From assembly GCA_963971535.1 (NCBI GenBank), contig OZ020590.1, positions 155,727,230-155,791,229 of the forward strand: a stretch of 64,000 nt of DNA, given 5' to 3'. This document shows positions 4,374 to 56,881 of the stretch, in pieces. Within the stretch, counting starts at the first letter, position 1, and each line of letters begins with the position of its first letter. The position numbers and the translations under genes were made by a program. Source of the stretch: Notolepis coatsorum. Taxonomy: Eukaryota; Chordata; Actinopteri; Aulopiformes; Paralepididae. The notes under the pieces were generated by a model. It saw nothing but the letters and a program-made list of their open reading frames with translations. It was not told the origin of the DNA and searched no databases.

Positions 4374-4583
4374 CAGTGATGGGAATAATGGCGTTATAAA
4401 TAACTTACTGCCAAAAAATGCGGTGCGTTACTATGATTGAAGCTGTTTTTTTTATCAGACAGATCTCTGCCCTGAGAAGCAATACTTTTTTTCCTTGGTT
4501 AGTGGGCAGTGCGCGATTGGCTGAGGTTGAGTAACATTTCATGGTAAGCCAATCAGAGGTAGAGGTGGGCGGGTGTTCGAAAG
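4374..4583. mobile_element. Truncated hAT element end inside the tandem duplication
   Basis: It begins CAGTGATGGGAATAATGGCG like the complete element at 5404 and follows it, with a gap of about 70 bp, to GGGTGTTCGAAAG. It then breaks off into the 29-bp minisatellite. The break marks the junction of the tandem duplication that doubled the klhl10 first exon. Confidence 0.8.
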
Positions 4584-5403: not shown

Positions 5404-5978
5404 CAGTGATGGGAATAATGGCGTTATAAATCACGGCGTTAGTTTTTTCAGTAACGAGTAATCTCTCTTCCAATCTTAATAACACTGTTACCGTTACTGC
5501 CAAAAAATGTGGCGCGTTACTATGATTGAAGCTGTTTTTTTTATCAGACAGATCTCTGCCCTGAGAAGCAATACTTTTTTTCCTTGGTTAGTGGGCAGTG
5601 CGCGATTGGCTGAGGTTGAGTAAAATTTCATGGTAAGCCAATCAGAGGTAGAGGTGGGCGGGTGTTCGAAAGAATCCAGAGTCTGACACACAGCGACAAC
5701 ACAAGCGACTCAGTCAATGACAGACCGCGGTTCCGTGTACGTTTTGATAGTTTGTTTGGCGAGCCCAAATAATCCAAAACTAATCCAACGAACAACACAA
5801 GCGAGCAGTCAACGACAGACATGAGCATTTTTTGTTCACTCTTGTGTTAGTTGTGTTGCAGCGCAGGACACTACAGTAGTGGAGGCTACAGCCTTATCAA
5901 CAGTGCTGCACTTCCTGGTTTAATAGCACAGTCTTCAGGTGTTCAGAGATATATATCTGTATGTCATGCATGTCTTAA

Positions 5979-14933: not shown

Positions 14934-15640
<707 letters not shown>

Positions 15641-31817: not shown

Positions 31818-32118
31818 TAAGGATGTCCGATATTATCGGCCTACCGATATTATCGGCCGATATTGGCATTAAAATGTAATATCGGAAATGATCGGTTTTC
31901 AAAATAAAAATAAAAATAGTTTTCTTTTTTTACATTTATTTAACCTTTATTTACCCAGGCAAGCAAGTAAGAACTTATTACCTGAAATTATTCCGTTTTT
32001 TTTAGGGGGAAACCCTGCATATATCGGTATCGGTTGATATCGGTATCGGAAATTAAGAGTTGGACAATATCGGTATAGCGGATATCGGTAAAAAAAAAGC
32101 CAATATCGAACATCCCTA
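31818..32118. mobile_element. hAT-type MITE (family B)
   Basis: The termini TAAGGATGTCCGATATT and (reversed) TAGGGATGTTCGATATTGG enclose many TATCGG motifs. The 8-bp duplication CTGTGAAC (31810-31817 and 32119-32126) is exact. A second copy, broken by a piggyBac-like element, starts at 39429. Confidence 0.9.
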
Positions 32119-38485: not shown

Positions 38486-39386
38486 TTACATAAATATCTC
38501 TTTGTTGTTGTACTTTAAGGTGTAACCCACGGCGACCTCCAGACACTCCACCAGCGAACCCGCCGAGAGGAAGTCCAGCTCCACCTCGACGAATTTTATG
38601 TAAACAGCCGACCCGCCGTCGTCTCCCGCCGCGTCCTGCCCCCCCATGACGCCGCTGTTCTCCTGCAGGAAGCGCGTGACGGCGGACGGCTCGCCCGGGC
38701 CGCACGGCTTCCCGAAGCTCTGAAAGTGCTGAAACAGACACTGCTGTAGGGTCCTGTCCTCCGCTATGCCCAGGTAGCAGTACGTGAGCCTAGTCCCCGT
38801 CTCCCCCCCTCCTCCTCCTCCGCCCTGAAGGCTCCCTGACGGCCACTGCGGTATGCTGTGGTCGCCCCGCGGCGACGCCGCCGCCGCCTGAGCCGCGCTG
38901 TTCGAGGCGTCGACGGCCGCCTCGTAGCCGATGGCGTAGAGTCCGTACGTCTTGGGGATGTCCCCGGGGAGGAGGTACTGCAGCGACGTGCCCCGGCCGC
39001 AGCCGGCCACCCGGGACTGGGCCACGGGCATCCAGTCCACCTCCATGTGCAGCTCCAGGCAGCGCGCCTCGCTGATGGTGATGTCCAGGCACTTGTAGTA
39101 GACGTTCTTCCAGTTCATCTTCTGCACCTTGGTCATGACCACGCGGCCCTCCGGCTTCTCCGGGTTGAAGTACTCGCGCAGCCGCTTGCCCAGCGGCACC
39201 TGGGAGCTGATCTCGGCGTGGTGGTAGCGCACGTCGTCGCGCCAGCGCGTGTTGTAGCCCACGCCGAAGATGGCCAGCTTGTTGGAGAGGTGCAGCCGCG
39301 AGAACTCCGTCCACGTCTGGAAGTGCTCCCACTTGAGCTGCACCGACTCCAGGATGCGCGTCACGTTCCGCATCACGTCCCGCTTC
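38486..39386 (-). CDS. msantd2: Myb/SANT-like domain protein 2, coding exon 4 (last)
   Basis: This exon encodes the conserved C-terminal half: [74 protein letters not shown] and [20 protein letters not shown], ending NNKEIFM and a stop at 38486-38488. It matches human MSANTD2 closely. The function of this region is not known to me. The acceptor is CCCCTCAG before 39386, and the first base completes a CA|G codon from exon 3. A fish-specific low-complexity insert (Ala-rich, then a run of seven Gly) lies where the human protein is variable. High G+C gives long antisense ORFs that are not genes. Confidence 0.93.
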
Positions 39387-39428
39387 CTGAGGGGAGGAGA
39401 TCATATCATTAATAATAATAATAAATAC

Positions 39429-40690
39429 TAGGGCTCGGCCGATATCGGCATTAAAATGTGATATCGGAAAATATCGGTATCGGTTTTCAAAAAAAAAAAA
39501 AAAAAAATTTTACATTTATATAAACTTTATTTACCGAGGCAAGCAAGTAAGAACAAATTCTGATTTTATTTATTGTCAAAAGTATGCATAATGTTGTGTT
39601 AATTCCACAACAAGAGATATGTAATGTTAATTACCTGAAATTATTCCGTTTTTTGGGGGGGGGGGGGGGGGACCCTGCATATATGGGTATCGGTTGATAT
39701 CGGTATCGGAAATTAACACTTTCTTCGCCAGGCTTATGTACATCATTATACCATCCTCTGCCAGCCCTATTTAACATGGAGAAGTTCCCCTTCTTTGCAG
39801 GGCTATAACTTTTTAAATTGTATTGCTAAATTGACATTACTATGGCCCATTCAACATCAAGTATCTATTGTTCAGGGTGTAGCAACGTTATACTTTTTCA
39901 TTCACATATTCATACTAAAATACGGTCTAAAGTATAAATATGTTTTTATCGTTTTCTGCAGCTTTCTGCAGAACGTGATTTATAGCCCTAAATGAATTAT
40001 ATTGATGATCAAATACAGTTTGATAGCGATTGGCGCGAGATAAAAAATGTCAAATGGACGTGCTTCTAGAAGTTACTACTTATCATCTGATGTTGACCGG
40101 ATGGGGGGGGGTCGTTTATAATTCCGTGGCCAACGTTAGATGATTCATCTAGTGTGGGTGATATGATCATTAGAGCAGTTTGTATCGAACACGGTAAAAA
40201 AAAACGCTGAAACTCACCGTAGCTTCCTCGTAGCGTTGGGCGATGAGCAAAAATATTCCTATTATGAGATATATTGAAATATGCGATCCATCGCCAGGTT
40301 GTATAATAGTATATACGTCCAAATCATGTTGTTTATCGAGTTATTGGTAACGGATTGCTATCCATTGTGTCTAGCTCGAGTCCCGGGACATATAGCGAGT
40401 GATCGGACCGAATTTGGATGAGCACCAGTTTCCGTTTCCGGTTTCCGGTTTGGGCGATCCGCCGATCGGCCACCAGATGGCGCTCTTGAACCGTTGGAGA
40501 GTTGAGAGGGGATCAACAGTAGATCTCAAGTCTGCGGGGGAGAAATATGATTGCGATCACAGATTTTTGAAATATTGATCTCAATGACGTGTTACGGCGT
40601 CATTGGCAGAATTAGCATGGCGGGGAATGACGAGGGAAGGCGTCCTTGGCGGCCATAGTGTTAAGAGTTGGACAATATTGGGGTGTGACG
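39429..40690. mobile_element. hAT-type MITE (family B) split by a piggyBac-like insertion
   Basis: TAGGGCTCGGCCGATATCGG at the left and TAAGAGTTGGACAATATTGG at the right match family B of 31818. The piece in between is the 39717-40660 insertion. The right end is truncated. It lies in the last intron of msantd2. Confidence 0.75.
39717..40660. mobile_element. piggyBac-like MITE nested in a hAT MITE
   Basis: TTAA is duplicated (39713-39716 and 40661-40664). The termini are CACTTTCTTCGCCAGGC and (reversed) CACTATGGCCGCCAAGG. Comparison with the uninterrupted family-B copy shows the exact insertion point at GGAAATTAAGAG. No transposase was seen. Confidence 0.78.
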
Positions 40691-40899
40691 TACTGTATAT
40701 TTTAGTTGATGAAATATTTGTGTTGACTAAATATTTTAGTTGATGAAATATTTTTTCATTTCAGTGTCACAGTATGACATCGATCTCCAAAATAATAAAA
40801 CAAATAAAAAGAAAAAGTTCAAATAATTTTTTTAGGGCCCTCGTCACTAGAGGCCCAAGGGCCGCGGCCCAAACGGCCCGGTCGTTAATCCGGCCCTGG

Positions 40900-41240
40900 T
40901 TTTGGGGATGTGTGTGAGAGTATGTGCAAAATAAAACATTGTTTTGTTTAAGGCAGCCTATATACTGTCATGGAGTCATACAGGTGTGTTTATATAAACA
41001 ACATACACCCCTCCTCCCCATGTATAAAAGTGCACATTGCAGCAGTTTTATATGTGATTGAAATTGGATCACATTGTAAAGTAACACCAAGTAGGCTGAC
41101 ACCATGACAACTGTATACGATAAAGACATAAAAAATATATCATATTGTAATTTGTACTGGGGGGGGGGGGGGGGCGGTTTAGTTTTTGGATGTGTGTGAG
41201 ATTATGGGCAAAATAAAGCAGCATTGTTTTTTGACGAAGT
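40900..41240. repeat. Dispersed repeat, also at 48085-48365
   Basis: The shared segments are GATTGAAATTGGATCACATT, ACCATGACAACTGTATACGA, TTTGGATGTGTGTGAGATTA and CAAAATAAA. Segment order differs slightly between copies, and a G homopolymer (41160-41174) interrupts this one. Superfamily unknown. Confidence 0.65.
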
Positions 41241-41329
41241 GCCCCTTTAATAGAGCTGGACAAGAGAGATGGAAAAGAGAAAAAGACAAAGAGACATAAT
41301 GAAGACAGCTGCTGTCCAGGTTGACTTAC

Positions 41330-41393
41330 TGGGTTTGTTCTGTGATCTCTGGTTGAATCTGGACCAGTCTGGCTTTAGGCACCGGGACTTCCT
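41330..41393 (-). CDS. msantd2: Myb/SANT-like domain protein 2, coding exon 3
   Basis: A 64-nt exon between an acceptor (TGTACAG before 41393) and a donor (CCCA|GTAAGT after 41330) encodes EEVPVPKARLVQIQPEITEQ plus TQ. Human MSANTD2 has DEIPVTKRTLKIKQE in the same place before KRDIMQN. The phases fit on both sides (G|AG from exon 2, CA|G to exon 4), which is why this short exon is accepted. Confidence 0.85.
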
Positions 41394-41695
41394 CTGTACA
41401 GAAAGGAATAGAAAAGAGGTCAACTTGTTGCTCCCAAGGTGCCGATTATTTTAATGAATCAATTCATCCAATTGATTACTTGTTATCAATTAGCCTAATC
41501 GGTGCATCTAAACCATAATTAAACAATTAAACATAAACATTAACACCATAGAAGGAGATGACCACTGTGACCATGTATCGCACATCTCTTTGCATTCATG
41601 AGGAAGTATTCCTCTGCATGGGATCACAGCTAGAATGCATGGGAGTCAATGAGCCTAAGACAGAAAACATCATGTGCTGTATATATACCGCATAT

Positions 41696-42002
41696 TAGGG
41701 ATGGGCATTTTAAAGAAAAATCCAGATCGATTGATCGCATGGCGCATGCTATACTCGAGTGATCGTGTATTACTCGAAAAGGGGAAAAAAACTAAAAATG
41801 TAATTAAAAAAATATAGATATTTTTTTTTACTTAATTTTGTTTATTCACGTATATGTTTAAGGAAACCAACAAACAGTTATAATCTTACACATACATGTG
41901 AAACAAATATGTAAAAAAAGATATATATAAAATTATACACAAATTATTTAAGATAGATTTTTCTCATAGATACGAGTAATCGATTACTCACGCCCATCCC
42001 TA
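41696..42002. mobile_element. hAT-type MITE (family C)
   Basis: The ends are TAGGGATGGGCATTTTA and (reversed) TAGGGATGGGCGTGAGTAA. The 8-bp duplication CCGCATAT (41688-41695 and 42003-42010) is exact. It lies in msantd2 intron 2. Confidence 0.92.
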
Positions 42003-42010
42003 CCGCATAT

Positions 42011-42735
42011 TATATATTTACCACATATATACATAACCATCTGTCTGACTCTGAATATACCTGCATAATATCCTCCTATACGTCACGGTGACCAATTGCA
42101 GCCACTCTTATTGTCTGGGACCAAATACGGCCACGCCCCACTCCCAGCAAAAAGTGGGAATCTCTAGAATGGGTTTGGGGCGGCGCTGTATACGGAAGTA
42201 GCTCTCAAGGTGACGATTAGACAACACTTTTTTGTTGTCAGTAGATGGCAGCATTGGTTTAAAATTAAAGGCTGAAAATGTTGAGAACTACAACACTGCA
42301 TTTCCCAAGAGCGTTAGCACAGGTCGCAGGTCACTGGGATGGGTCTATATTCTCCGACGTGATCTGAACAGCGTTAAACTATTACTGCAACCTCGGTATA
42401 GCGACCGCGAATGGCCAACTAATTATCTTAACAAAAGTGCGCTGGTAGCATTACATATGTTGTCTAAAGGGGGACATATGGTACAATTTAAGATTCTAAT
42501 GATAATCGGCATATAAAGGACAAGATAAAGCATCGTTAATTTGTAAGAAACCTCAATGAAAACGGCGCAGGGTGCTATTGTTATGAAAATGTGATAGAAT
42601 CCTATAAAAATGTGGACGCACTTGGCCTACGTTCCGTTAGGTACCTGCCTGTGACCTGCATGTAACGCATATAACTCTGTATGATGGCATGAACAATAAT
42701 GCTGTATAGCTGTATATGCATTATATATATATATA
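42011..42735. other. msantd2 intron sequence, unassigned
   Basis: 42232-42516 is open on the plus strand (94 codons) without a recognised motif. It may be part of an old MITE. Confidence 0.4.
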
Positions 42736-43335
42736 TCTATTAGTGCTGTCAGGCGATTCAATTTTTTTTATCTAATTAATTACAGGATTTGTAATTAATT
42801 AATTAATCTAATTAATCACATTTTAATCGCATAACCATTTTAGGCCTGATATTCTATAATCATATTTCAAATGGCATGAATTCAGTACTGCATCTACAGA
42901 ACCTTCTGTTTAATCATCTTCCATTTAGTCATTCGCTTAGATTTTTCAGGTCTGGTCAATTTTAGCATGGTGTTATTCACAGTCAAAGATAAAAAAAAAA
43001 TGTATTGATATTCTCATTTGGTTTATTACAATTTACTCAAGCCTAGTAACAGACACAGTATTTCTGACACTGAGATCCATAGATGTCCCTAGAATCAGAT
43101 ACCAAGAACATGCAAATGGACCATATTAAAAAAAAATCTGTTAATGTGTATTCTACGTTATTATGGAATGAATGAGATTAAAAAAAAATTAAAAAATCTA
43201 AAGAAATTTTTATTAATTATTTTGTTCAGTTTTTTTGTTAAGTATTGTGTGATTTTTTTGTGTATGGCAAACTGTAGTTTAACTGTGCACATGACAATAA
43301 AACAATCTTGAATCTTGAATCTAATCTAATCGGTT
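42736..43335. mobile_element. MITE fragment and LINE 3' end
   Basis: TAGTGCTGTCAGGCGATTCA at 42740 matches the inverse of the 14598 fragment. At 43200-43320 TGCACATGACAATAAAACAA and repeated CTTGAAT form a LINE 3' end. The remainder is A/T-rich. Confidence 0.55.
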
Positions 43336-43529
43336 TAACTTGTTTTCCAGCATCCTGCACTGTAGAGCCGTGTTGATAGTACGGTTTTGATGCTGTATTA
43401 GTTGGATTTACAGATTTGTTTAAGTATCATGAAGGTTGTGCATGCTTTATTGATCCGCTTTTAAATATATTGGTTGTGGCCAAACTCCCGCAACAATAGC
43501 CTTCTCAAAATCACCCAGCAAGATGACAC

Positions 43530-43617
43530 ACTGATTCAGACACACTCCTACTCAGACACACACTCCTACTCAGACAGACACACACTCCTACTCAAGACAC
43601 ACACTCCTACTCAAGAC
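43530..43617. repeat. Minisatellite interrupted by the 43618 element
   Basis: Units of CACACTCCTACTCAGACA and CACTCCTACTCAAGACACA are present. The array resumes at 44542-44585 on the other side of the insertion. Confidence 0.85.
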
Positions 43618-44541
43618 TAGAGTTGTTCTGATACCGATACCAGTATCGGAAATGACTCCGATACAGCCTAAAATGCTGGTATCGGTATCGGCGAGTACAC
43701 GTCAAATCTATGCTCCGATCCCATGACGTAATTTATCAACAATACGTGGGGTATCCTCCTGCTGAGAGTGAGCATTATAAAATAAACATGTTTTAATCTA
43801 CCGTGAATTAAAGTGTCAATGCTGTTTGTCATTTTAACAGCAGATACTTTCTTAAATGCCATCGTCCCGACAGAGCGGTGTGACGGGGAGCTCTGACGTG
43901 TTTGCTTGCTGGTGTTATTAGCATTAGCTGAAGAGCTAACCAAAAAGCTAGTTTTAGCTTAACGTTACCTTGGCTAAAGTTGGGGCTATTCATAATCCAG
44001 CAATAATGGCTGCAGACCTGCAAGCAAAGTACAGCAAGTTGGCAAAGGAGTATTCCAAGGTAAATCACTTTTTCACCAGTAACGTTACATTGTCTTTCCA
44101 TCTAGCTCACGTTAACGTGGCTAACCTAAGTGTTGTCACTGATCGACCTCTCGTACGCAATTAATGACATGTTGCGGACAGCCATACCGGTGACAATGTT
44201 TAGCTTTTAGTGCCAAAGGATAAGAGTCTGAGGCGGAGTCTCAAGAGAGAATGTTGAATATTTATTGTGCATTAAAAATCACAACATAAAGTTACTACTA
44301 GCCAGAGCCTCTGCTACTAGCTAACTGAACCGGAGCACCTGGATAGCAAGTGCAACAACGTATAACGTCTGTGCGGAACCAATGTCCCAACAACCTTTCC
44401 GTGGGTGAACTCATTGAGCATAGTTGTCAATTAATGATTATGTATGCACTGGTATCGGATCAGTATCGGTATCGGCCGATACCCAAAGCTTAGGTATCGG
44501 AATCGGATCGGGAAGGAAAAATTTGTATCGGAACATCTCTA
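43618..44541 (+). mobile_element. hAT-type element that appears to carry a host exon
   Basis: The ends are TAGAGTTGTTCTGATACCGA and (reversed) TAGAGATGTTCCGATACAA, with TATCGG-rich subterminal regions. The 8-bp duplication CTCAAGAC (43610-43617 and 44542-44549) is exact, and the minisatellite target continues on both sides. The interior is not transposase. It holds a 54-nt exon-like segment (44006-44059), G+C-balanced flanks with repeated GCTAGTTTTAGC and AACGTTAC motifs, and an opposing short ORF starting ATGGC at 43860. It lies in msantd2 intron 2. Confidence 0.85.
44006..44059 (+). pseudogene. ppp1r21: Captured first coding exon resembling PPP1R21 (KLRAQ protein)
   Basis: The translation is MAADLQAKYSKLAKEYSK, directly followed by a GTAAAT donor. 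Human PPP1R21 begins, as I recall it, MASAELQGKYQKLAQEYSK and then LRAQNQ. The match covers the whole exon, including its apparent end after EYSK. PPP1R21 is an endosomal coiled-coil protein; nothing of its remaining exons is present in the window. Because the exon lies between the ends of a transposon with an exact target duplication, capture of genomic sequence (exon plus some promoter and intron) is the simplest reading. It is on the opposite strand to msantd2. Alternatives are a chance match in 18 residues, or a chimeric transposon gene start. Confidence 0.6.
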
Positions 44542-44699
44542 CTCAAGACACACACTGACTCCGACACACACTCCTCCTCAGAGACGCAGAGGGCTGCCTG
44601 GATGTGCTCAGGATGGACAGCGAAGCAAATGCCAAGGGTCACATTACACTGACTGAACCCCAAAGAGCAAGAGAAGGAGAGGGAGTCTAACATGGAGCA

Positions 44700-45655
44700 G
44701 GACAATAGAGAAAGAACTCCTACAACAACACAAACACCACAGAGAAAGAACTAACTACAACCCAAACACCACAGAGAAAGAACTAACTACAACACAAACA
44801 GTAACACCACAGAGAAAGAACTAACTACAACACAAACACCACAGAGAAATAACTAACTACAACACAAACACCTCAGAGAAAGAACTCCTACAACACAAAC
44901 ACCACAGAGAAAGAACTAACTACAACACACCACAGAGAAAGAACTCCTACAACACAAACACCACAGAGAAAGAACTAACTACAACACACCACAGAGAAAG
45001 AACTCCTACAACACAAACACCACAGAGAAAGAACTAACTACAACACACCACAGAGAAAGAACTCCTACAACACAAACACCACAGAGAAAGAACTCCTACA
45101 ACACAAACACCACAGAGAAAGAACTAACTACAACACACCACAGAGAAAGAACTCCTACAACACAAACACCACAGAGAAAGAACTCCTACAACACAAACAC
45201 CACAGAGAAAGAACTCCAACAACACCATAGAGAAAGAACTCCAAACAACACCATAGATAAATAACTCCAACACCATAGATAAATAACTCAAAACAGCACC
45301 ATAGATAAATAACTCCAACACCATAGAGAAATAACTCAAAACAGCACCATAGATAAATAACTCCAACACCATAGATAAATAACTCAAAACAGCACCATAG
45401 ATAAATAACTCCAACACCATAGATAAATAACTCAAAACAACACCATAGATAAATAACTCCAACACCATAGATAAATAACTCAAAACAGCACCATAGATAA
45501 ATAACTCCAAACAGCACCATAGATAAATAACTCCAACAACACTATAGGGAAAGAATTCCAACACCATAGATAAAGAACTCGAACAACACCATAGATAAAG
45601 AACTCGAACAACATAAAGAACTACCAACACCATAGATAAAGAACTCCAACAAAAC
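44700..45655. repeat. Composite minisatellite
   Basis: The left half has units of AACACCACAGAGAAAGAACT with CCTACAACACA or AACTACAACACA. The right half has shorter units of CACCATAGATAAATAACTC with CAAAACAG or CAA. The antisense ORFs rich in YLWCC and IYG are products of the repetition. Confidence 0.95.
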
Positions 45656-46600
45656 CAATACCATAGAGAAGGATGAACAAAGACAGAAGGAAGTGGAGGG
45701 ACTGTGTTGCTGTCCTATTAGCCAGCCAGCAGTAGGAGTGAGTGAGTGACAGTGCAGTTCATTTTATTGGTTCAAAAACATCCACACAGTGACAATTGAT
45801 TTATCAGTTGTGTTAGCGACTGTTCCCATAGCAACCGGTCACACACTGGTCCCATGAATTCCTTTACATCCGAAAGCTTCCTGCATCACAGCGCTGCAAT
45901 CACAGCGCTACCTCGACATCACCTAAAGAACTCTGACCAGCTACTTCCACCGGGCCAATAGGCTACTGACGGAGAGACTCTGAACCATCGTGGTCATGTA
46001 CAAAATGTCTTGTTAAAGTTATATTGTACAGTATAGGATTATTTTAAGACTATTTGTTGTATTGCAATGTATTGTATTTGTATTTGGGGTGTAACGGTAC
46101 ACAGAAGCCACGGTTCGGTACGTACCTCAGTATTGGGGTCACGGCTCGGTACAACAGAAAAAAAATATTTATAATAATTATTATTAATAGAATATTTTTT
46201 ACATTTTTAAATGTATATATTATATTTATGATAATTATTATAATTATTATTATTAAATAGAATAATTTTCGATAGGCTTGCCATGGTAGTCAGTGATACT
46301 GGTGTCATTCTGTGTTCAGGCATCCACTTGCCTACTGCCCATTTAACAACTTATCCTTGCTAAGTTTCAGTTTCACTTCTAGAGAGAATTTAACTTCACG
46401 ACGAGACTGAATACTAGAGAACAGATGGCATTTATTTAACATTTTTTGGACCTTATGGTGTTCTTGTTTTGTTCTTGACTTATTGTGATGTTTCTTCTTG
46501 ACTTGTTTAAAGAAGACGTGTCCGGTCCATTGGGACATTAACGTGTGTTGTCGGGCCTCACAAATACATTTGATTTGATTTGATTTGAAAACAAGAATCT
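45656..46600. other. msantd2 intron sequence with TE fragments
   Basis: 46085-46270 starts GGGGTGTAACGGTACACAGA, a hAT-MITE end truncated into (ATT)-rich DNA. 46435-46592 is a plus-strand LINE 3' end matching 27848-27996. 45940-46080 resembles a LINE 3' UTR. Confidence 0.6.
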
Positions 46601-46712
46601 CACGTTTTCGGAATGTATATACATTCTAAAAGCTGTGACAATAAATCTATCTATCCATCCATCAATCACCTCCTCACGGTGCTCTTAGCCCCGACGCACC
46701 CATCCCACTCAC

Positions 46713-46968
46713 CGGCCTCCATGTCGCCCTCCTGGAAGGCGGAGGCCAGCACCTGGTTGCACCAGTCCTCCTGGGAGAAGTCCTCCAGGGTGCTGCCGTC
46801 CGACTCCATGTCCTGGTACAGGCCGCTGCTGTTGATGAGCACCGGGGCGCAGCTCTGAGAGTCCCAGCCTCCCTGGCCAAACACCTTCTCCAGCTGCTCG
46901 ATGGAGTAGCTGCTCTTCCTCTTCCCGACGCCGTGCTCCTTCACCCGGCTGTAGCAGCGACGCAGCGT
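46713..46968 (-). CDS. msantd2: Myb/SANT-like domain protein 2, coding exon 2
   Basis: The exon starts ACG CTG CGT after CCCCAG and encodes [20 protein letters not shown], then [36 protein letters not shown] and [19 protein letters not shown]. It ends GCC G|GTGAGT. The first 40 residues complete the Myb/SANT-like (trihelix-type) domain begun in exon 1, and the rest is an acidic linker matching human MSANTD2. 256 nt, phase 0 in and phase 1 out. Confidence 0.93.
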
Positions 46969-47049
46969 CTGGGGAAGAGAGGGAAGGCGCTTCATGAGGG
47001 CCGCGTCAAAGAGAGGGAACGCGCTTCAAGAGGGCCGTGTCAAAGAGAG

Positions 47050-47340
47050 GGGACACGCTTTCAAGTTTCTTTATTCGTTTTCAGAAATACAGAATACTTT
47101 TGTATAAAATAGAAAGTCAAGTACGTAAACAAGTGTAAACAAAACAAAAAATTTCAATATACATATATACAATATACAATGCAGAGTAGAGAAGGTAACT
47201 TGAGTACAATTACAGTACAATATACAGTACAATGCAGAAATGGATGCAGATGAGTGGAAGAGAGGGAACGCTGCTTCATGAGGGGGGCGTGGAAGAGAGG
47301 GAAAACAAAGCTAGATGCAGACAACGCTCGCTGCAATATT
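47050..47340. mobile_element. Reversed LINE-tail fragments
   Basis: TTTCAAGTTTCTTTATTCGT and AATACAGAATACTTTTGTAT recur at 11715-11760. A degenerate repeat of the exon-2 intron edge (AGAGGGAACGCGCTTCA) occurs four times at 47000-47300. Confidence 0.55.
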
Positions 47341-47559
47341 ATATATATATATATATTAACAAATTGTTCTAAATAAATAATAATGATTTTTATTTTTTAT
47401 TTTTAAGTACCGAAAAAGGTATCGTTGTGTACCGGTATCGATTCACATGTACTGATATCGGTTCAAAGGGAACTTCGGCAAAAATAAACTGATTTATTTT
47501 GCACTTAATCTCACACACATGTCCAAAAAGTCTAAACGGTTTTGTGCACGTTCCTTTAT

Positions 47560-47826
47560 ATAGGGGCGACAGTGGTTCGGGAGGTAGAACGTTCGTCTGG
47601 GAATCGTTAAGGTTCCCGGTCCGATTCCTGTTTCTCCCGGGCAGCGTGTCAAAGTGTCCTTGAGCAAGACACTTAACCCCTAATTGCTCCTGGTGAGCAG
47701 GTCGGCACCTTGCATGGTCGCCTCCGCGGGCGATGTGTGAATGTGTGAGTGAACGGATCAAATGTGAGGAACAAAATTGTAATGCGCTTTGGATAAAAAA
47801 CGCTATATACTGTAAATACACCATTT
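47560..47826 (+). mobile_element. tRNA-derived SINE (family S1), full length
   Basis: The head GGGGCGACAGTGGTTCGGGA continues through an A-box-like region to the B box GGTCCGATTCC. The central CAGCGTGTCAAAGTGTCCTTG and the tail GCGCTTTGGATAAAAAACGC plus TATATACTGTAAATAC follow. Minus-strand relatives are at 26630-26826 and 48838-49126. Confidence 0.85.
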
Positions 47827-48084
47827 ACCTTCCTTCATATTGACGGTTATCGAGAGTAAATTAGTTTGAATGTGGCCATCAGTGATGTCATCGGGGGTGT
47901 TGGATCTTTGTGCTGCATTAGTTACAGCTCAATGAATTGATGAAGTAGCAGCCCCTATAAGACATGGTGTTGCTATTTTTTCATCTACATCATTCCATTG
48001 AGCTGTAATTAACATAATGATGCAATGCCCCCGATGACATATTCAAACTGATTTACTCTCACCACCCACTGCCCAACTAAATTA

Positions 48085-48365
48085 ATGTGTGCAGTTAGCT
48101 GTTTTTGGATGTGTGTGAGATTATGTGCAAAATAAATCAGCATTGTTTTTTGGTGAAGTGCCCGTTTAAACATAGGATTCATCAATAATATACACCCCTC
48201 CTCCCCATATATAAAAAGTGCATGTTGCAACAGTTTTATACTGTATGCGATTGAAATTGGATGTGAAAAGATCACATTGTAAAGTAACACCAAGATGGCC
48301 AACACCATGACAACTGTATACGATAAAGACATCAAAAATTCCTCATATTGTCATTTGTACTGGAG
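48085..48365. repeat. Dispersed repeat, also at 40900-41240
   Basis: It contains TTTTTGGATGTGTGTGAGAT, ACACCCCTCCTCCCCATATA and ACCATGACAACTGTATACGA in the same family as 40900. Confidence 0.65.
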
Positions 48366-48399
48366 AAAACCCACCTTAAATACCGGCATTAGGCTGTAC

Positions 48400-48777
48400 C
48401 AGTGTTTCCCATTAATTACCTAGACTGTGGCGGGCCCGCCACAGTTTTATAATGAAACAAAAAATTATTAAAAGAAATAAAAAAATAAAAATATTTTTTT
48501 AAATATAAAGTTTGCCAATAGGGATGCATCAGTAGTATTGGCAGTGGTAGTGGTATTTTCTAAAAAATAAACCAGTTCAACACAGGTAACCACTTTTGCT
48601 TCATTTCTTTGATGGCTCAAATGTATGCTCTAGTCGATTTTGTGTTTTGAGCACAAAGTTCATCATAGATCTAGCCTCTTTCTTTTGCTCTCAAAGTTCA
48701 TCAGATATTTAGCTTTAAAAAAAAAAGGGCCCGAGATTCACCCACCACAGTCCCACTAAATCCTGTGGGAAACACTG
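48400..48777. mobile_element. hAT-type MITE (family D)
   Basis: The ends CAGTGTTTCCCATTAATTA and (reversed) CAGTGTTTCCCACAGGATT are followed by CTGTGGCGGG/CTGTGGTGGG blocks. The flanks GGCTGTAC and GGCTATAC (48392-48399 and 48778-48785) match at 7 of 8. Confidence 0.85.
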
Positions 48778-48837
48778 GGCTATACCTTCAAAACTAAGAG
48801 AAATAGTGATATATTTTTGGCTGCATCACCTATCCCT

Positions 48838-49126
48838 AAATGGTAAATGGTGCATTTACATACCAGCTTTTATCCAAAGCGATTTACAATTTGTGTTCCT
48901 CACATTTTACCCACTCACTCACACGTTCACACACAGACGGCGCCCGGAGGCGACCAGTCCGACCACGCAAGGTGCCGACCTGCTCATCGGGAGCCGTTAG
49001 GGGGTGGTTAAGTGCCTTGCTCAAGGACACTTTTTGACACGCTGCCCGGGAGAAGCTGCAATCAGAACGGGAACCGCTCACGATTACCAGACGACCAGCT
49101 CTACCTCCTGAGCCGCTGTTGTCCCT
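48838..49126 (-). mobile_element. tRNA-derived SINE (family S1)
   Basis: On the minus strand it reads CAGCGGCTCAGGAGGTAGAG, GGTTCCCGTTCTGATTGCAG and GTGTCCTTGAGCAAGGCACT, with tail AAATCGCTTTGGATAAAAGC and CATTTACCATTT. Confidence 0.85.
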
Positions 49127-49549
49127 TTCATGCCCCTATCTCTTACTTTCCTAAAAGCCTTGAGGGGAAAAACCTGTTCAACAAAAACATTTTAAATGGT
49201 GGAAAATCTGATGTGGTGTATTTTGGTACTAAAAGGCAAAGTAGCGTGACATCATGTGCAACGAGGGCAGCTGGTCAGGTTTCGTGTCAATCGAACTTCG
49301 TGAAGGAATAACAGCCTTTTAGATCATGACTTTCAATGATGCCACCACTATCTGGCCAACTGGTATAATATTTGATGTGTACACATAATAACAACGTACC
49401 AAATAACAATGTATCTAATAACAATGAACATAATAACAATGTAACAAATAACAATGTTCCTAGTAACAATGTACCTAACAACAATGAACATAATAATGTA
49501 CATAAAAACTATGTAAATGGTAACAATTAACTGCATCATTGAGCATCAT
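49127..49549. other. Unassigned intron sequence with a 15-bp degenerate repeat
   Basis: 49385-49515 has units of AATAACAATGTACCTA or AATGAACAT. There is no gene. Confidence 0.5.
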
Positions 49550-49970
49550 TTTTTTTTTTTTTTTAATCTTTTTCCCCCTTATTTTTCCTCCGATTTTCTC
49601 CCATCCCAATGTTAGTCGTTATGCCAATTCCCAATCCCCTTCCTGGTCGCTGCGCACTTACCCCCCACAGTCGGTCTGGGAGAGTGGAGGCTATCACGTG
49701 CTTCCTCCGACACACGTCCAGCCAATCAACCGCTTCTTTTCACCTGGCAGCGCGGACTCTCACTGAGAGGGTGTAACGTGTGGAAGGATCACACTACCCC
49801 CCTTAGATCCTATCCGCGCTGAGCAGGCGCCCCGACCGAACTGTAGGAGTCGCTGTTTATAACAACCCGGACCCACCCCGCCAGCTTCTCCCACCCTCTA
49901 ATACAGCCAATTGTATTAGTGTGAACGGCCAGCCAAGCTGGTGACAACGCCGGGAGCTGGATTCGAACAG
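49550..49970 (-). mobile_element. tRNA-derived SINE (family S2)
   Basis: The right end, GGGAGCTGGATTCGAACAG on the plus strand, corresponds to the B-box region of the S2 head. The body CCAATTGTATTAGTGTGAAC and the T-rich left end match 28655-29114. The first part of the head is missing. Confidence 0.8.
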
Positions 49971-50183
49971 AATTGAAAATCATTTCAATAGTCTCACAAT
50001 CTCACAGTAAACTGAAAACCAGCGAGAGAATAAATAATGATATAGCCTAAGTATATACAGTAGGCTAAAATATTAAATATTTTTATTTATTGCCATCTAC
50101 TTATTTTCCCCTTTATCCATATTTGCATTTCTAGTTGTTGTCGATGTGAATTTAGTTAAAAAAAAGTATCTAAGTTTATATAC

Positions 50184-50446
50184 CACTGGTACTCAACCTT
50201 TTTGCTTTGTGACCCCTTACACAGAGGGGTGCCTGTTTGTGAGGCATAGACAAAATAGTGAACCATGATTTTTATTACCCCCTTTCAGGATATTTAACTT
50301 GATTAATGACTAGAGGAGTTCTTTAGACTTCAAATCTTTATTATTTCTCAAGGGGGAGAACATCTAGCTTATCCAAAAGATTATAATATTAATAATGCGG
50401 CCAAAATCCTCTGGCAACCCCCAAGTTGAGAACCACTGTTCTATAA
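50184..50446. mobile_element. hAT-type MITE
   Basis: The ends CACTGGTACTCAACCTTTT and (reversed) CAGTGGTTCTCAACTTGGG are inverted repeats. The flanks are only roughly alike. Confidence 0.7.
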
Positions 50447-50534
50447 CAATAAAACAAGGCTGGAACACTTATCAAGTGAGCCAACGTGAAAATATTAAAG
50501 ACTTATGGGGCAGAATTTATTAGGCCCCACTCAT

Positions 50535-51345
50535 CATCACTAAGGCTACATTCAGACTGCAGGCAAAAGTGGCCCAAATCGGATTCATTTTGCTCATATG
50601 TGACTCAGATCTGCATTGTCATGACGGTGTGTGAACGGCACAAATCAATCACACAATCTGATCTTTTTAATTGTGATTTGGGCCACTGTGTCGTCATGTC
50701 ATGTGGTCCTAAATCAGATACAGATGGGATTTGTTTTAATCAGCTGGCCAGCCTCCACTTACTGCATTCAACTTATACAGTAAACCACAAACTGTGACCC
50801 TCCATGTTTACGTCCATCATTGTTATTGTTCATGTGCGTATTATATGCGGGTCAGTTCAGGAGCGTGACCAGTTCACACTGGAATCTGATATTGACAGCC
50901 AAAACAGGAGTGGTTCTTGTATAGTAAACAGATGGATATAGCAAGCTAGCATAAGGACACATAGTATAACTGTAGATGTATAGTGTATAGCATTGTATAG
51001 TAGTGGACATAAGACCCAGTGCCTCATCCGTAGCTAACATTGTATTGCACTATCGCAGGACCTTAGCATGTCTTACCATGCTTTTTGTAAACTGTATGTA
51101 CATATACCTGTTATGTCTTATTCTTATTACTTGTTTTATTGCACAAATGTCTTATTCTCATCCTATTCTTATTACTTGTATTATTGCACAATCGCTGCGG
51201 GCATGACCGCCCGCATTTCACTGTATGCTTGTATGCCATCATTGCCGTGACAAATAAAACTCTTGACTTGACTTGAAAACAAAATAATCAGATCTGAGCA
51301 ATACATCATAATTGAGCACAAAAGCTTGCAGTGTGAACGTAGCCT
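50535..51345. mobile_element. MITE with a LINE 3' end inserted
   Basis: The ends AAGGCTACATTCAGACTGCA and (reversed) AGGCTACGTTCACACTGCA are inverted repeats, with AATCAGATCTGAGC-like motifs inside both. A plus-strand LINE 3' UTR (51000-51280, with TGCGGGCATGACCGCCCGCA and ending GTGACAAATAAAACTCTTGA) is inserted. That LINE matches the one at 23205. Confidence 0.75.
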
Positions 51346-51688
51346 AATTCCACTGAGCTGGACCTTGTTGTGGAACCTGTGGTGGATAGTCCTGGTGTTG
51401 TCAACAGACCCCAGACAGCTTTAGCGAAGTGTGACTTGATGTTCATAATATAGCTAATGCCTAATGGTCAGTGTTTGCTGTATGTCACATAAAATCCTCG
51501 CCATATTATTGATTGGGAAGACCAGATTGTGTGTGTGTCACAAACCGTGGTGCAGCAACAATGCTTTGAGATGAGCATCGCAACAACATCAGTAAGCAGC
51601 ACACCTGTTACTAGAACCTCAAGCCTGGTTCAAAACCACAGTGAGTCTGAATCTTGCAAGCTGGGTCAGCAGCAAGATGACAGCTTGG

Positions 51689-51734
<46 letters not shown>

Positions 51735-51934
51735 AGAACTGGCATGTTTTTAGAACATGTACCTTTAATGTAATATGCAAATCTCACATTATATACCTTT
51801 ATTATGACTATATGGCCCCGGTGTACAGTGTCTTCATCAAATGTATATATACTCTCTTTTTTAGACTATTTTTGTATCACAAACAGTACTGTATTTGTAA
51901 ATCTGATATGTCATAAATGTATAGATGTAGCAGT
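51346..51934. other. msantd2 intron sequence with an (ATG)n microsatellite
   Basis: The (ATG)n tract is at 51689-51735. The remainder is unassigned. Confidence 0.6.
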
Positions 51935-52475
51935 ACTGTCTATCTGTATGTCATGCATGATTATGTTATGATGAATTGAAAAGGGGGGACCCTGATGTAA
52001 ACAAGATGAAAGTCTTTCTCTGGTCTTCTGCATCCCCTTAACAATTGTGTATTGAGATGTACTACTGTATTGTACCCATTCTGCAATCTGTTAATAACAT
52101 TTTCAATCAATCAATCAAGACCAGAGAAAGACGTTTGTCTTGTTTACATCAGGGTCCCCCATTTTCAATTCATAGTGACATTTATGACAACATACATGAC
52201 AGTTATGTTATGGCATAGGGACATACATGACATGTACCTTTTTAATGTACATGCAAATCTCACGTTATATATATATACCTATATTACGACAATATGGCCT
52301 CCTACATCTTCTTCTTCTTCTTCTTCTTCTTCCAGATTTACAAATACAGTACTGTTTGTGGTCTCTGGTCTGCATCCCCTTAACAATTGTGTGTATTGAG
52401 CTGTACTGTATTGTACCCATTCTGCAATCTGGTAATATAACATTTTCAATCAATCAATCAATCAATCAATCAAGC
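51935..52475. mobile_element. Cluster of TCAA-ended LINE tails
   Basis: Two plus-strand copies (51935-52115 and 52365-52475, each ending CAATCAATCAATCAA) flank a minus-strand copy (52120-52200). A (CTT)n run lies at 52305-52332. The last copy ends 25 bp from msantd2 exon 1. Confidence 0.7.
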
Positions 52476-52499
52476 CCCGGTTATTATTAATGTCAATAC

Positions 52500-52964
52500 C
52501 TTCATCCTCTCCCGGCACTGGGAGGGGGTCCTCTCGTAGCCCAGCTCCGCCAGGGCCCTGGAGACCCGCTCGTACATGGCGGGCCCGGGGGCCTTGCCGG
52601 AGAACACGGTGCCGGCCACCTCCAGCTGCTGCATGCGCGCCTCCGTCAGCCGCTCGTTGCCCCACACCGCGATCAGCGCGTTGGTCTCGGACGGCGTCCA
52701 GGACATGCCGCGGCACGCCGTGGAGCTCAGGAAGCCGTTGTTGGAGGAGGACGAGGCCGCCAAGCCGCCGCTCCGGCCCGCTACGTTCAGAGGCGAGAAG
52801 CGGTTCGGCGTGGACGGGTTGGACGAGTGGTACTGGTTGTTACTGTCACTTAGATTGTCCTCGGATTCGGGCGACGGCGCCTCCGTCTTCGGTATCTTTA
52901 TTAACAACGGCGGACTCGTTATCATCTCGAGAGAACGCTCGGCGTTTCTGCTGGACGCCGCCAT
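52500..52964 (-). CDS. msantd2: Myb/SANT-like domain protein 2, coding exon 1
   Basis: The ATG at 52964 is chosen because MAASS aligns with the human start and sits in a YY1-type AAGATGGCGGC. The open frame continues upstream to 53126 only through a G+C-rich promoter. Residues 1-85 are Ser/Pro/Asn-rich with [14 protein letters not shown], like human SPLKIPKMEVLSP. From [20 protein letters not shown] (about 84) the Myb/SANT-like domain runs through [20 protein letters not shown] and SQCRERMK into exon 2. The exon ends ATGAAG|GTATTG, phase 0. The four exons sum to 1686 nt, or 561 residues, close to the 559 I recall for human MSANTD2, a predicted DNA-binding nuclear protein. Confidence 0.93.
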
Positions 52965-52967
52965 CTT
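52957..52967 (-). promoter_or_regulatory. YY1-type motif over the msantd2 start codon
   Basis: AAGATGGCGGC on the minus strand is the YY1 consensus and contains the proposed start codon, an arrangement known from many vertebrate CpG-island genes. Confidence 0.6.
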
Positions 52968-53030
52968 TGCGCTGCCTCCTCCTCTGTTGCTAAGGGGAGG
53001 GGGAGGGGGGGGAAGGGTGGTGACGTGCCG

Positions 53031-53038
53031 TGACGTCA
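53031..53038. promoter_or_regulatory. CRE in the msantd2 promoter
   Basis: A perfect palindromic TGACGTCA lies about 70 bp upstream of the ATG, within a CpG-rich segment that also has GGGCGGGGCGGGG (about 53056). Confidence 0.6.
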
Positions 53039-53111
53039 CCGCGCTGGTCGAGAGAGGGCGGGGCGGGGCGCCTGAATGCCTTCTACAACAGAACTGCATT
53101 TCCGCGTCTCT

Positions 53112-53117
53112 GATTGG
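53112..53117 (-). promoter_or_regulatory. CCAAT box
   Basis: GCCAATCA in the minus orientation, about 150 bp upstream of the msantd2 ATG. An E-box-like GTCATGTGAC follows at 53132. Confidence 0.5.
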
Positions 53118-53214
53118 CCAGGTCATTTCTGGTCATGTGACATGTACGCCCAATCGTGGGACCGCAAGTTTCTGCAGGTGCAGAGGGTGCAGAGGTGAAT
53201 AGGGTAAAAAAATT

Positions 53215-55445: not shown

Positions 55446-55920
55446 TTTTCAGAGCCATTCATTTTCAGTACCACTTCTGGCTTTTTAGAATTCAGCCACA
55501 TTTTGCAATGTTTTGACCTATGATTGGTATGTGTGTACAACTTAAAGGTGCTATAGATAAAACGTAAAAAAAAAAGTATTTAGAGTAATCATTAAATAAA
55601 AATAAGAATATATCTACAGAACTTTTAGAAAGGTGTGGAATAAACTTTTTATTTTGTATTAATTAATTTATAATTCAAATAACATTCTAAAGTCAATGTT
55701 GTTGTTTACATGTTGCATGCATGTATCCCCTCCCTGCTTTCCATTTCCCCACGTGGAATGCACCTGATTGGACAAATGACATGCTGCTGGTGCTCTAGTG
55801 CGACATCTAGTGCTGCATTTAAATAATGTAAAAGCAAGGCTCTGGGGCAAGAAGGACATGGAAGGTCAGTGAACAGCAAATTTTTTATATATTTAGTTAT
55901 TTAGATTGTAGAGGTATTAG
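55446..55920. other. Unassigned sequence, MITE-like
   Basis: ACTTAAAGGTGCTATAGATA at 55540 resembles the end of the TTAA-flanked MITE at 24352. GTGCTCTAGTGCGACATCTA at 55790 is a motif common in such elements. No gene was recognised. Confidence 0.45.
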
Positions 55921-56881
55921 TAATGTTTCAATGTAACCTTGGAGAGGTATTAGTAATGTTTCAATGTAACTTTGGAGAGGTATTAGTAATGTTTCAATGT
56001 AACTTTGGAGAGGTATTAGTAATGTGTCAATGTAACTTTGGAGAGGTATTAGTAATGTTTCAATGTAACTTTGGAGAGGTATTAGTAATGTGTCAATGTA
56101 ACTTTGGAGAGGTATTAGTAATGTTTCAATGTAACATTGGAGAGGTATTAGTAATGTTTCAATGTAACATTGGAGAGGTATTAGTAATGTGTCAATGTAA
56201 CATTGGAGAGGTATTAGTAATGTTTCAATGTAACATTGGAGAGGTATTAGTAATGTTTCAATGTAACATTGGAGAGGTATTAGTAATGTTTCAATGTAAC
56301 ATTGGAGAGGTATTAGTAATGTTTCAATGTAGCTTTGGAGATATATTAGTAATGTTTCAATGTAACTTTGGAGAGGTATTAGTAATGTTTCAATGTAACT
56401 TTGGAGAGGTATTAGTAATGTTTCAATGTAGCTTTGGAGAGATATTAGTAATGTTTCACTGTAACTTTGGAGAGGTATTAGTAATGTTTAAATGTAACAT
56501 TGGAGAGGTATTAGTAATGTTTCACTGTAACTTTGGAGAGGTATTAGTAATGTTTCACTGTAACTTTGGAGAGATATTAGTAATGTTTCACTGTAACTTT
56601 GGAGAGGTATTAGTAATGTTTAAATGTAACATTGGAGAGGTATTAGTAATGTTTCAATGTAACTTTGGAGAGGTATTAGTAATGTTTAAATGTAACATTG
56701 GAGAGGTATTAGTAATGTTTCAATGTAACATTGGAGAGGTATTAGTAATGTTTCAATGTAACTTTGGAGAGGTATTAGTAATGTTTCACTGTAACTTTGG
56801 AGAGGTATTAGTAATGTTTCACTGTAACTCTGGAGAGATATTAGTAATGTTTCAATGTAACTTTGGAGAGGTATTAGTAAT
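55921..56881. repeat. 33-bp minisatellite, about 29 copies
   Basis: The unit contains AATGTTTCAATGTAACTTTG and GAGAGGTATTAGT. Because 33 is a multiple of 3, one plus-strand frame stays open as repeats of MFQCNFGEVLV. Variants are only point changes at a few sites. I treat it as non-coding. Confidence 0.93.

Follow-up and report, generated by a model that had tools for sequence, protein, structure and literature searches.

The stretch of DNA analysed here, referred to as the window, comprises 64,000 bp from the fish Notolepis coatsorum (C21:155727230-155791229; assembly of 3.42 Gb in 4,787 contigs). A presumed msantd2-like gene lies on the minus strand, where a human MSANTD2 query matched three blocks (52715-52494, 46971-46753 and 39388-38642), the first of them within a frame that has a Myb/SANT domain. 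The mobile element described below is intronic, with the second block on one side and the third on the other (Table 1). It is antisense to the gene and therefore no new start is expected for the msantd2-like gene from this copy. Elsewhere in the window, a 33-bp minisatellite of approximately 30 copies (55906-56881) is spanned by a stop-to-stop open frame of 372 residues, and TACT is repeated perfectly almost 25 times at positions 15266-15364. A search of the window against Rfam gave 0 matches at the gathering threshold. Two TATCGG-rich stretches of the window (approximately 32021-32118 and 39420-39720) were considered as further copies of the element's family and rejected by eye only.

Table 1. 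Coordinates of features in the window and of the exons of the source gene on contig C23
Feature	Position	Strand	Basis
msantd2-like gene (presumed)	38642..52715	-	tblastn with human MSANTD2; Myb/SANT domain in 52470-53132
Left target-site duplication CTCAAGAC, within minisatellite	43610..43617	.	sequence
hAT-a element, entire, 924 bp	43618..44541	+	inverted ends and duplication; ends common to copies elsewhere
hAT left end, TATCGG-type subterminal repeats, not ppp1r21-derived	43618..43768	+	motif scan; ppp1r21 stretch searched without match
ppp1r21 upstream DNA, captured	43769..43938	+	86% to L004:4937-4754
ppp1r21 5' flank, exon 1 and start of intron 1, captured	43946..44137	+	86% to L004:4369-4164
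Exon 1 coding part MAADLQAKYSKLAKEYSK, 18 codons, phase 0	44006..44059	+	translation
Splice donor GTAAAT	44060..44065	+	sequence; identical in ppp1r21 gene
Intron 1, captured, contiguous across the gene's present 1.3-kb repeat point	44136..44205	+	82% to L004:2842-2760
Foreign piece, approximately 203 bp, inserted into payload after capture	44206..44408	+	basal copy L076 without it; L079 with it
Intron 1, captured, final block	44409..44438	+	97% to L004:2705-2676
Junction where window copy is without approximately 148 bp of longer copies	44438..44439	.	reference L013 positions 822-969
hAT right end	44440..44541	+	98% to L013 positions 970-1071
Right target-site duplication CTCAAGAC	44542..44549	.	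sequence
ppp1r21 exon 1	L004:4294-4241	-	human PPP1R21 match
ppp1r21 exon 2	L002:6370-6302	-	human PPP1R21 match
ppp1r21 exon 3	L002:5623-5462	-	human PPP1R21 match
ppp1r21 exon 4	L002:3080-2976	-	human PPP1R21 match

The element is a non-autonomous hAT element of 924 bp, here assigned to family a. An earlier sequence-only reading had reported inverted TAGAG-TGTT ends and an exact 8-bp duplication set in a minisatellite, and both were confirmed. The left end TAGAGTTGTTC begins at 43618 and its inverse TAGAGATGTTC closes the element at 44541, whilst CTCAAGAC stands without mismatch on either side, where the minisatellite continues. The minisatellite unit itself contains CTCAAGAC, and so the duplication of this copy is weak evidence when taken alone; the point is settled by the other copies, described below. 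The ATG exon and GT donor named in the same reading are also present, as MAADLQAKYSKLAKEYSK followed by GTAAAT. Its statement that the similarity to ppp1r21 ends with the exon did not stand, as the ppp1r21 gene of the same genome matches the element on both sides of the exon.

This gene was found on another contig, C23. The KLRAQ family of PPP1R21 gave a single match genome-wide, on C23, and the human PPP1R21 protein, used as a query, identified four exons in order on its minus strand, with approximately 18 kb between exon 1 and exon 2. The same query matched the exon-1 copy in the window, with all else there at E values above 1. The proposed capture of a ppp1r21 start is thus borne out: there is one intact locus that matches the payload in its upstream DNA, in exon 1 and at the beginning of the intron, and the gene continues normally into exons 2-4 on C23 rather than from the window. 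The element and the 5' end of the gene align in four main blocks (25 mismatches in 460 aligned bases, 16 gaps), and five further blocks, all short, correspond to a tandem repeat on its upstream side. Several tandem copies of the unit TTATTAGCATTAGCTGAAAAGCTAGCTAG lie upstream of ppp1r21 at L004:4754-4370, and the element has one. The outer 151 (left) and approximately 103 (right) bases of the element were unmatched in the ppp1r21 stretch searched, and a search for hAT ends in the matched stretch of the locus found none. Exon 1 of the gene reads MAADLQAKYSKLAQEYSK, with Q where the element has K; the donor is identical. A 63-mer of the source type has a single exact occurrence genome-wide, which is that in ppp1r21; four other places differ from it by 3 mismatches. 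Moreover, intron 1 of the gene now contains a 1.3-kb repeat at a point across which the element is contiguous, and so the capture probably preceded this repeat.

Further copies of the element with the same payload, which the sequence-only reading had predicted, are abundant. A DNA search with the element produced 5,111 candidates, and the exon was covered in all 40 of those scored. A 36-mer from the exon start was found at 5,432 places genome-wide (2,701 + 2,731, at most 3 mismatches; reversed control 0), and a 38-mer from the hAT-a left end at 2,623 places at the same threshold. For comparison of copies, 73 were oriented and combined with the ppp1r21 gene to give 74 sequences; they include the 30 loci that ranked as most similar to the window copy (L006-L035), together with 40 of 100 listed places on contig C1 with an exact exon start (L036-L075). 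Divergence of the payload from the majority base in L006-L035 was 0.6-3% in 16 of 25 intervals and at most 7.7% in the rest, which points to a young family, in a sample that leans young because it was ranked by likeness to one copy.

Terminal inverted repeats of hAT transposons are short and start with YARNG, and the Ac-type target preference is for 8-bp duplications with T at position 2 and A at position 7. Both ends of family a, TAGAG(T/A)TGTTCC, are present in 36 of the 73 copies, and the ends TAGAGTTGTTCC / TAGAGATGTTCC in the copies fit the YARNG motif. Duplications of 8 bp, with no more than one mismatch, flank 30 of these 36 copies (28 exact, none in the other 6), with T at position 2 in 20 and A at position 7 in 21; the elements so flanked are 924-1,187 bp long. 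One duplication is common to L014 and L015 and another to L032 and L033, which are probably duplicated DNA. Non-transposon sequence therefore lies between the ends of one TIR element, its parental gene is on C23 with no element ends in the stretch searched, and the element is multicopy with distinct duplications, apart from those two pairs. By these tests the element belongs to the Pack-TIR class. A Helitron was rejected on the presence of inverted ends and 8-bp duplications; as described in the available part of Grabundzija et al. 2016 (PMC4778049), Helitrons are without inverted ends or target duplication and insert between A and T.

It is very likely that the window holds one copy of a highly multicopy Pack-hAT, in which the start of ppp1r21 was captured once, amplified and relayed to two further hAT families, c and d. 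A non-autonomous element of family a would have captured approximately 1 kb of the ppp1r21 5' end, reaching from upstream DNA through exon 1 and its donor into the start of intron 1. This Pack-hAT would then have multiplied by cut-and-paste, using hAT transposase supplied in trans by a putative autonomous partner, and so brought the exon to thousands of places. The interior of the payload would later have entered at least two more hAT families, c and d, with other ends. Both capture and exchange may have proceeded by gap repair or template switching, and nesting followed by deletion is a conceivable alternative for the passage from a to c and d. Intact copies may carry a working promoter and could serve as a 5' exon trap.

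The exon and donor were also compared across copies. MAADLQAKYSKLAKEYSK followed by GT is exact in 21 of the 74 sequences, source included (17/32 in L006-L035 and 4/41 in L036-L075); the gene itself falls outside this class, reading Q for K. Genome-wide, GAGTATTCCAANNNAAATCAC is found exactly at 4,485 places, which continue as AAG/GT at 1,392, as AAG/TT at 896 and otherwise at 2,197, the remaining places reading AAC/GT or AAC/GC among the 100 listed. The exon plus donor occurs without mismatch at 224 places, and a truncated exon exactly at 735. Variants were scanned in 58 of the 67 non-truncated copies, 9 being left out for poor ungapped fit. Those common to at least four copies occur at 14 of 106 positions, among them all of donor -1, +1 and +2 and one site in the remainder of the exon. 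This suggests repeated donor loss, in a pattern that is no test of it, because the C1 copies were picked by exact match at positions -4 to 31 and the donor classes were known before the scan.

The anatomy of the payload resembles that of the bat transposon HelibatN3, with a start codon, a coding stretch and a donor in phase, and the captured upstream DNA is a putative promoter. That the payload could seed new 5' exons is plausible, because the exon ends in phase 0 and the donor stretch is kept at 1,392 exact places. A bolder reading, which we consider unlikely, is that the gene start has become a mobile putative 5'-exon trap that persists beyond its first transposon, with a relay through three families and repeated disarming of the donor. 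Working copies would harm the genes they enter, and so successful lineages would have disarmed the donor, by changing GT to TT or to GC, by losing the exon's final G or by deleting its 3' half, with many disarmed copies remaining beside over a thousand whose donor stretch is intact. The donor-altered subfamilies are at most suggestive of such disarming. There is a reasonable probability, somewhat above even, that the same Pack-hAT has instead carried its promoter and donor unused, the donor changes being chance markers of the copies that happened to multiply. This opposes only the exon-trap part of the explanation preferred above. It fits with the exon not being specially conserved in a sample not chosen by exon, and with the 1,392 exact donor-intact places that remain, so that intact copies are not rare; the concentration of shared variants at the three donor positions, against one exon site, speaks the other way and is suggestive in a chosen sample. 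Clear selection for the exon within the element was rejected, as the sample not chosen by exon displayed no distinct conservation.

The payload is carried between three kinds of ends. Classified in this way, 41 copies of the C1 sample comprise 25 with a hAT-a end, 7 of family c, 3 of family d and 6 with none. Family c has ends of the TAGGGGTGCACCGATA type on one or both sides (L038, L043, L046, L050, L065, L068, L069), and family d has ends TAGGGGTG(C/T)AACGGTA (L059, L061, L064). Exact 8-bp duplications flank L038, L043, L046, L068 and L069 of family c and L059 of family d; by eye, L050 has a duplication with one mismatch and L061 a low-complexity one. In forced 60-base alignments, 31-41 positions are identical between ends from different families, approximately as many as between the two ends of one family (36, 38 and 40). 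These three kinds of ends might mean that families a, c and d each captured ppp1r21 independently from the gene, and we regard this as improbable. The c copy L065 and the d copies retain a junction between ppp1r21 intron and a foreign piece that is missing from the gene, and in L061 a hAT-a subterminal stretch, TGTATGCACTGGTATCG, is enclosed by hAT-d ends, which argues that the payload was relayed from the Pack-a element into d and c. Derived exon changes of family a recur in most copies of c and d. L061 still has the Q codon of the gene, and so its payload would have left family a early. At L055 (C1:18075900-18079100), a payload element lies within a 2,148-bp stretch delimited by TAGGGCTGGGCGATAT in inverted orientation and by CACCCATG as an exact duplication; this stretch may be another hAT that hosts the payload.

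hAT dimerisation domains are present in long open frames of the same genome. Frames of 659-660 residues with equal scores (e.g. C1:101600068, C1:198863266, C7:87077703, C7:126178309 and C46:65976222) suggest a recently active hAT. The 601 bases beside one 659-aa frame contain none of the three end kinds, and two short stretches of this 3' flank are similar to family c body sequence (57 bases at 84%, reverse, and 34 at 88%). An autonomous element with family a ends was not found among the hAT-domain frames and the 601-base flank examined.

The limits of the captured segment are common to several copies. Similarity to the gene starts at reverse coordinate 5064-5066 in L070, L013, L057, L061 and L076, and stops at 7386-7389 in L070, L013, L061 and L076; L057 was matched no further than 7235, and in L077-L079 the similarity begins further in. 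In L076 the gene sequence is uninterrupted, without the foreign 203-bp piece, whilst in L079 the piece is present with approximately 4 gene bases duplicated at it. The segment at 44206-44408 is therefore a later insertion, and a derivation from ppp1r21 was rejected, L076 passing that point of the gene without it; the origin of the piece was not found. Of the basal copies, L077 and L079 have no hAT ends and L076 and L078 a right end only, and thus the first capturing element is not seen whole. In the stretch read around L079 (C44:38901800-38904500) none of the three end kinds accompanies the basal payload, and this copy may be a fragment or lie outside a transposon. When the 74 payloads are arranged in a tree with the gene as root, L057 and a clade with truncated exons branch close to the base and the donor variants group together; many nodes are poorly supported and some long branches are misplaced (e.g. 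L039).

Two further accounts concern the relation between window and gene. That the window holds the real ppp1r21, or a conventional duplication of its 5' region with no transposon payload, would agree with the intact exon and gene-like surroundings, but is refuted by the later exons on C23, exon 1 alone being in the window, by hAT ends and duplications on either side of the piece, in this copy as in others, and by the thousands of copies (5,432 places). It is similarly far-fetched that an element landed at ppp1r21 and gave the gene its exon 1, for which nothing beyond the similarity itself was found, whereas the exon resembles human PPP1R21, the gene locus has no hAT ends in the matched stretch and the gene retains sequence that most copies are without.

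Pack-TIRs are a known kind of element. The available part of Tan et al. 2021 (PMC8277862) gives 370 of them in 100 animal genomes, with 208 hAT and 8 in zebrafish; four animal cases named there are multicopy, three of them from frog and one from alligator, in addition to Ssk-FB4 of flies. One of the frog examples, hAT-N8_XT, carries the CAPSL 5' UTR in three copies. As in those cases, a TIR element here holds a piece of a host gene from an unlinked parent and has multiplied with distinct duplications, but here there are thousands of exon places, subfamilies and passage into other hAT families. Rice Pack-MULEs, as summarised in the same part of that paper, are also TIR elements that carry gene fragments originating on other chromosomes, and roughly one in three is multicopy, but they belong to the Mutator superfamily of plants. 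By anatomy, the element would work like HelibatN3, its closest functional analogue, in which a NUBPL promoter, six codons and a donor were shown to act as an exon trap in bats (PMC4778049, available part); the same text cites a bat in which amplification of the promoters of 15 genes has given 4,690 copies. Both have a captured gene start, a short coding stretch, a splice donor and wide spread. HelibatN3 is a rolling-circle Helitron with six codons and demonstrated expression, whereas the present element is a cut-and-paste hAT with 18 codons. In the fungus Pseudocercospora fijiensis, a hAT likewise captured a host gene, histone H3, and amplified it to hundreds of copies, but all except the original are RIP-inactivated and no gene-start module is involved, according to the available part of Dhillon et al. 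2019 (PMC6710886). In the part of the literature searched, we found no report of ppp1r21 capture, nor of vertebrate hAT capture at such a scale or relay between hAT families. The scale for a vertebrate hAT and this relay look new.

Animal cut-and-paste gene captures are nearly always single-copy, as far as the available part of PMC8277862 extends, as against the thousands of places found here. Moreover, the source gene, intermediate states and passage between families are contained in one assembly, so that the course from capture through spread to decay can be followed in it. Should the intact copies be transcribed and spliced, they would constitute a natural experiment in gene remodelling by mobile gene starts, with the donor-intact and donor-dead subfamilies as built-in test and control groups. 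If the payload is still active, this transposon-borne piece could seed new gene starts.

Lastly, two local arrangements of copies were observed. Among the matches listed, nine perfect exon-plus-donor copies lie within approximately 0.23 Mb at C13:5028376-5257333, perhaps through local segmental amplification. At L023 (C6:62404770-62408553), one payload element seemingly lies inside another of its family in opposite orientation; L023a has the donor AAG/TT, yet is placed in a donor-intact clade of the payload tree, perhaps through conversion between the nested copies.
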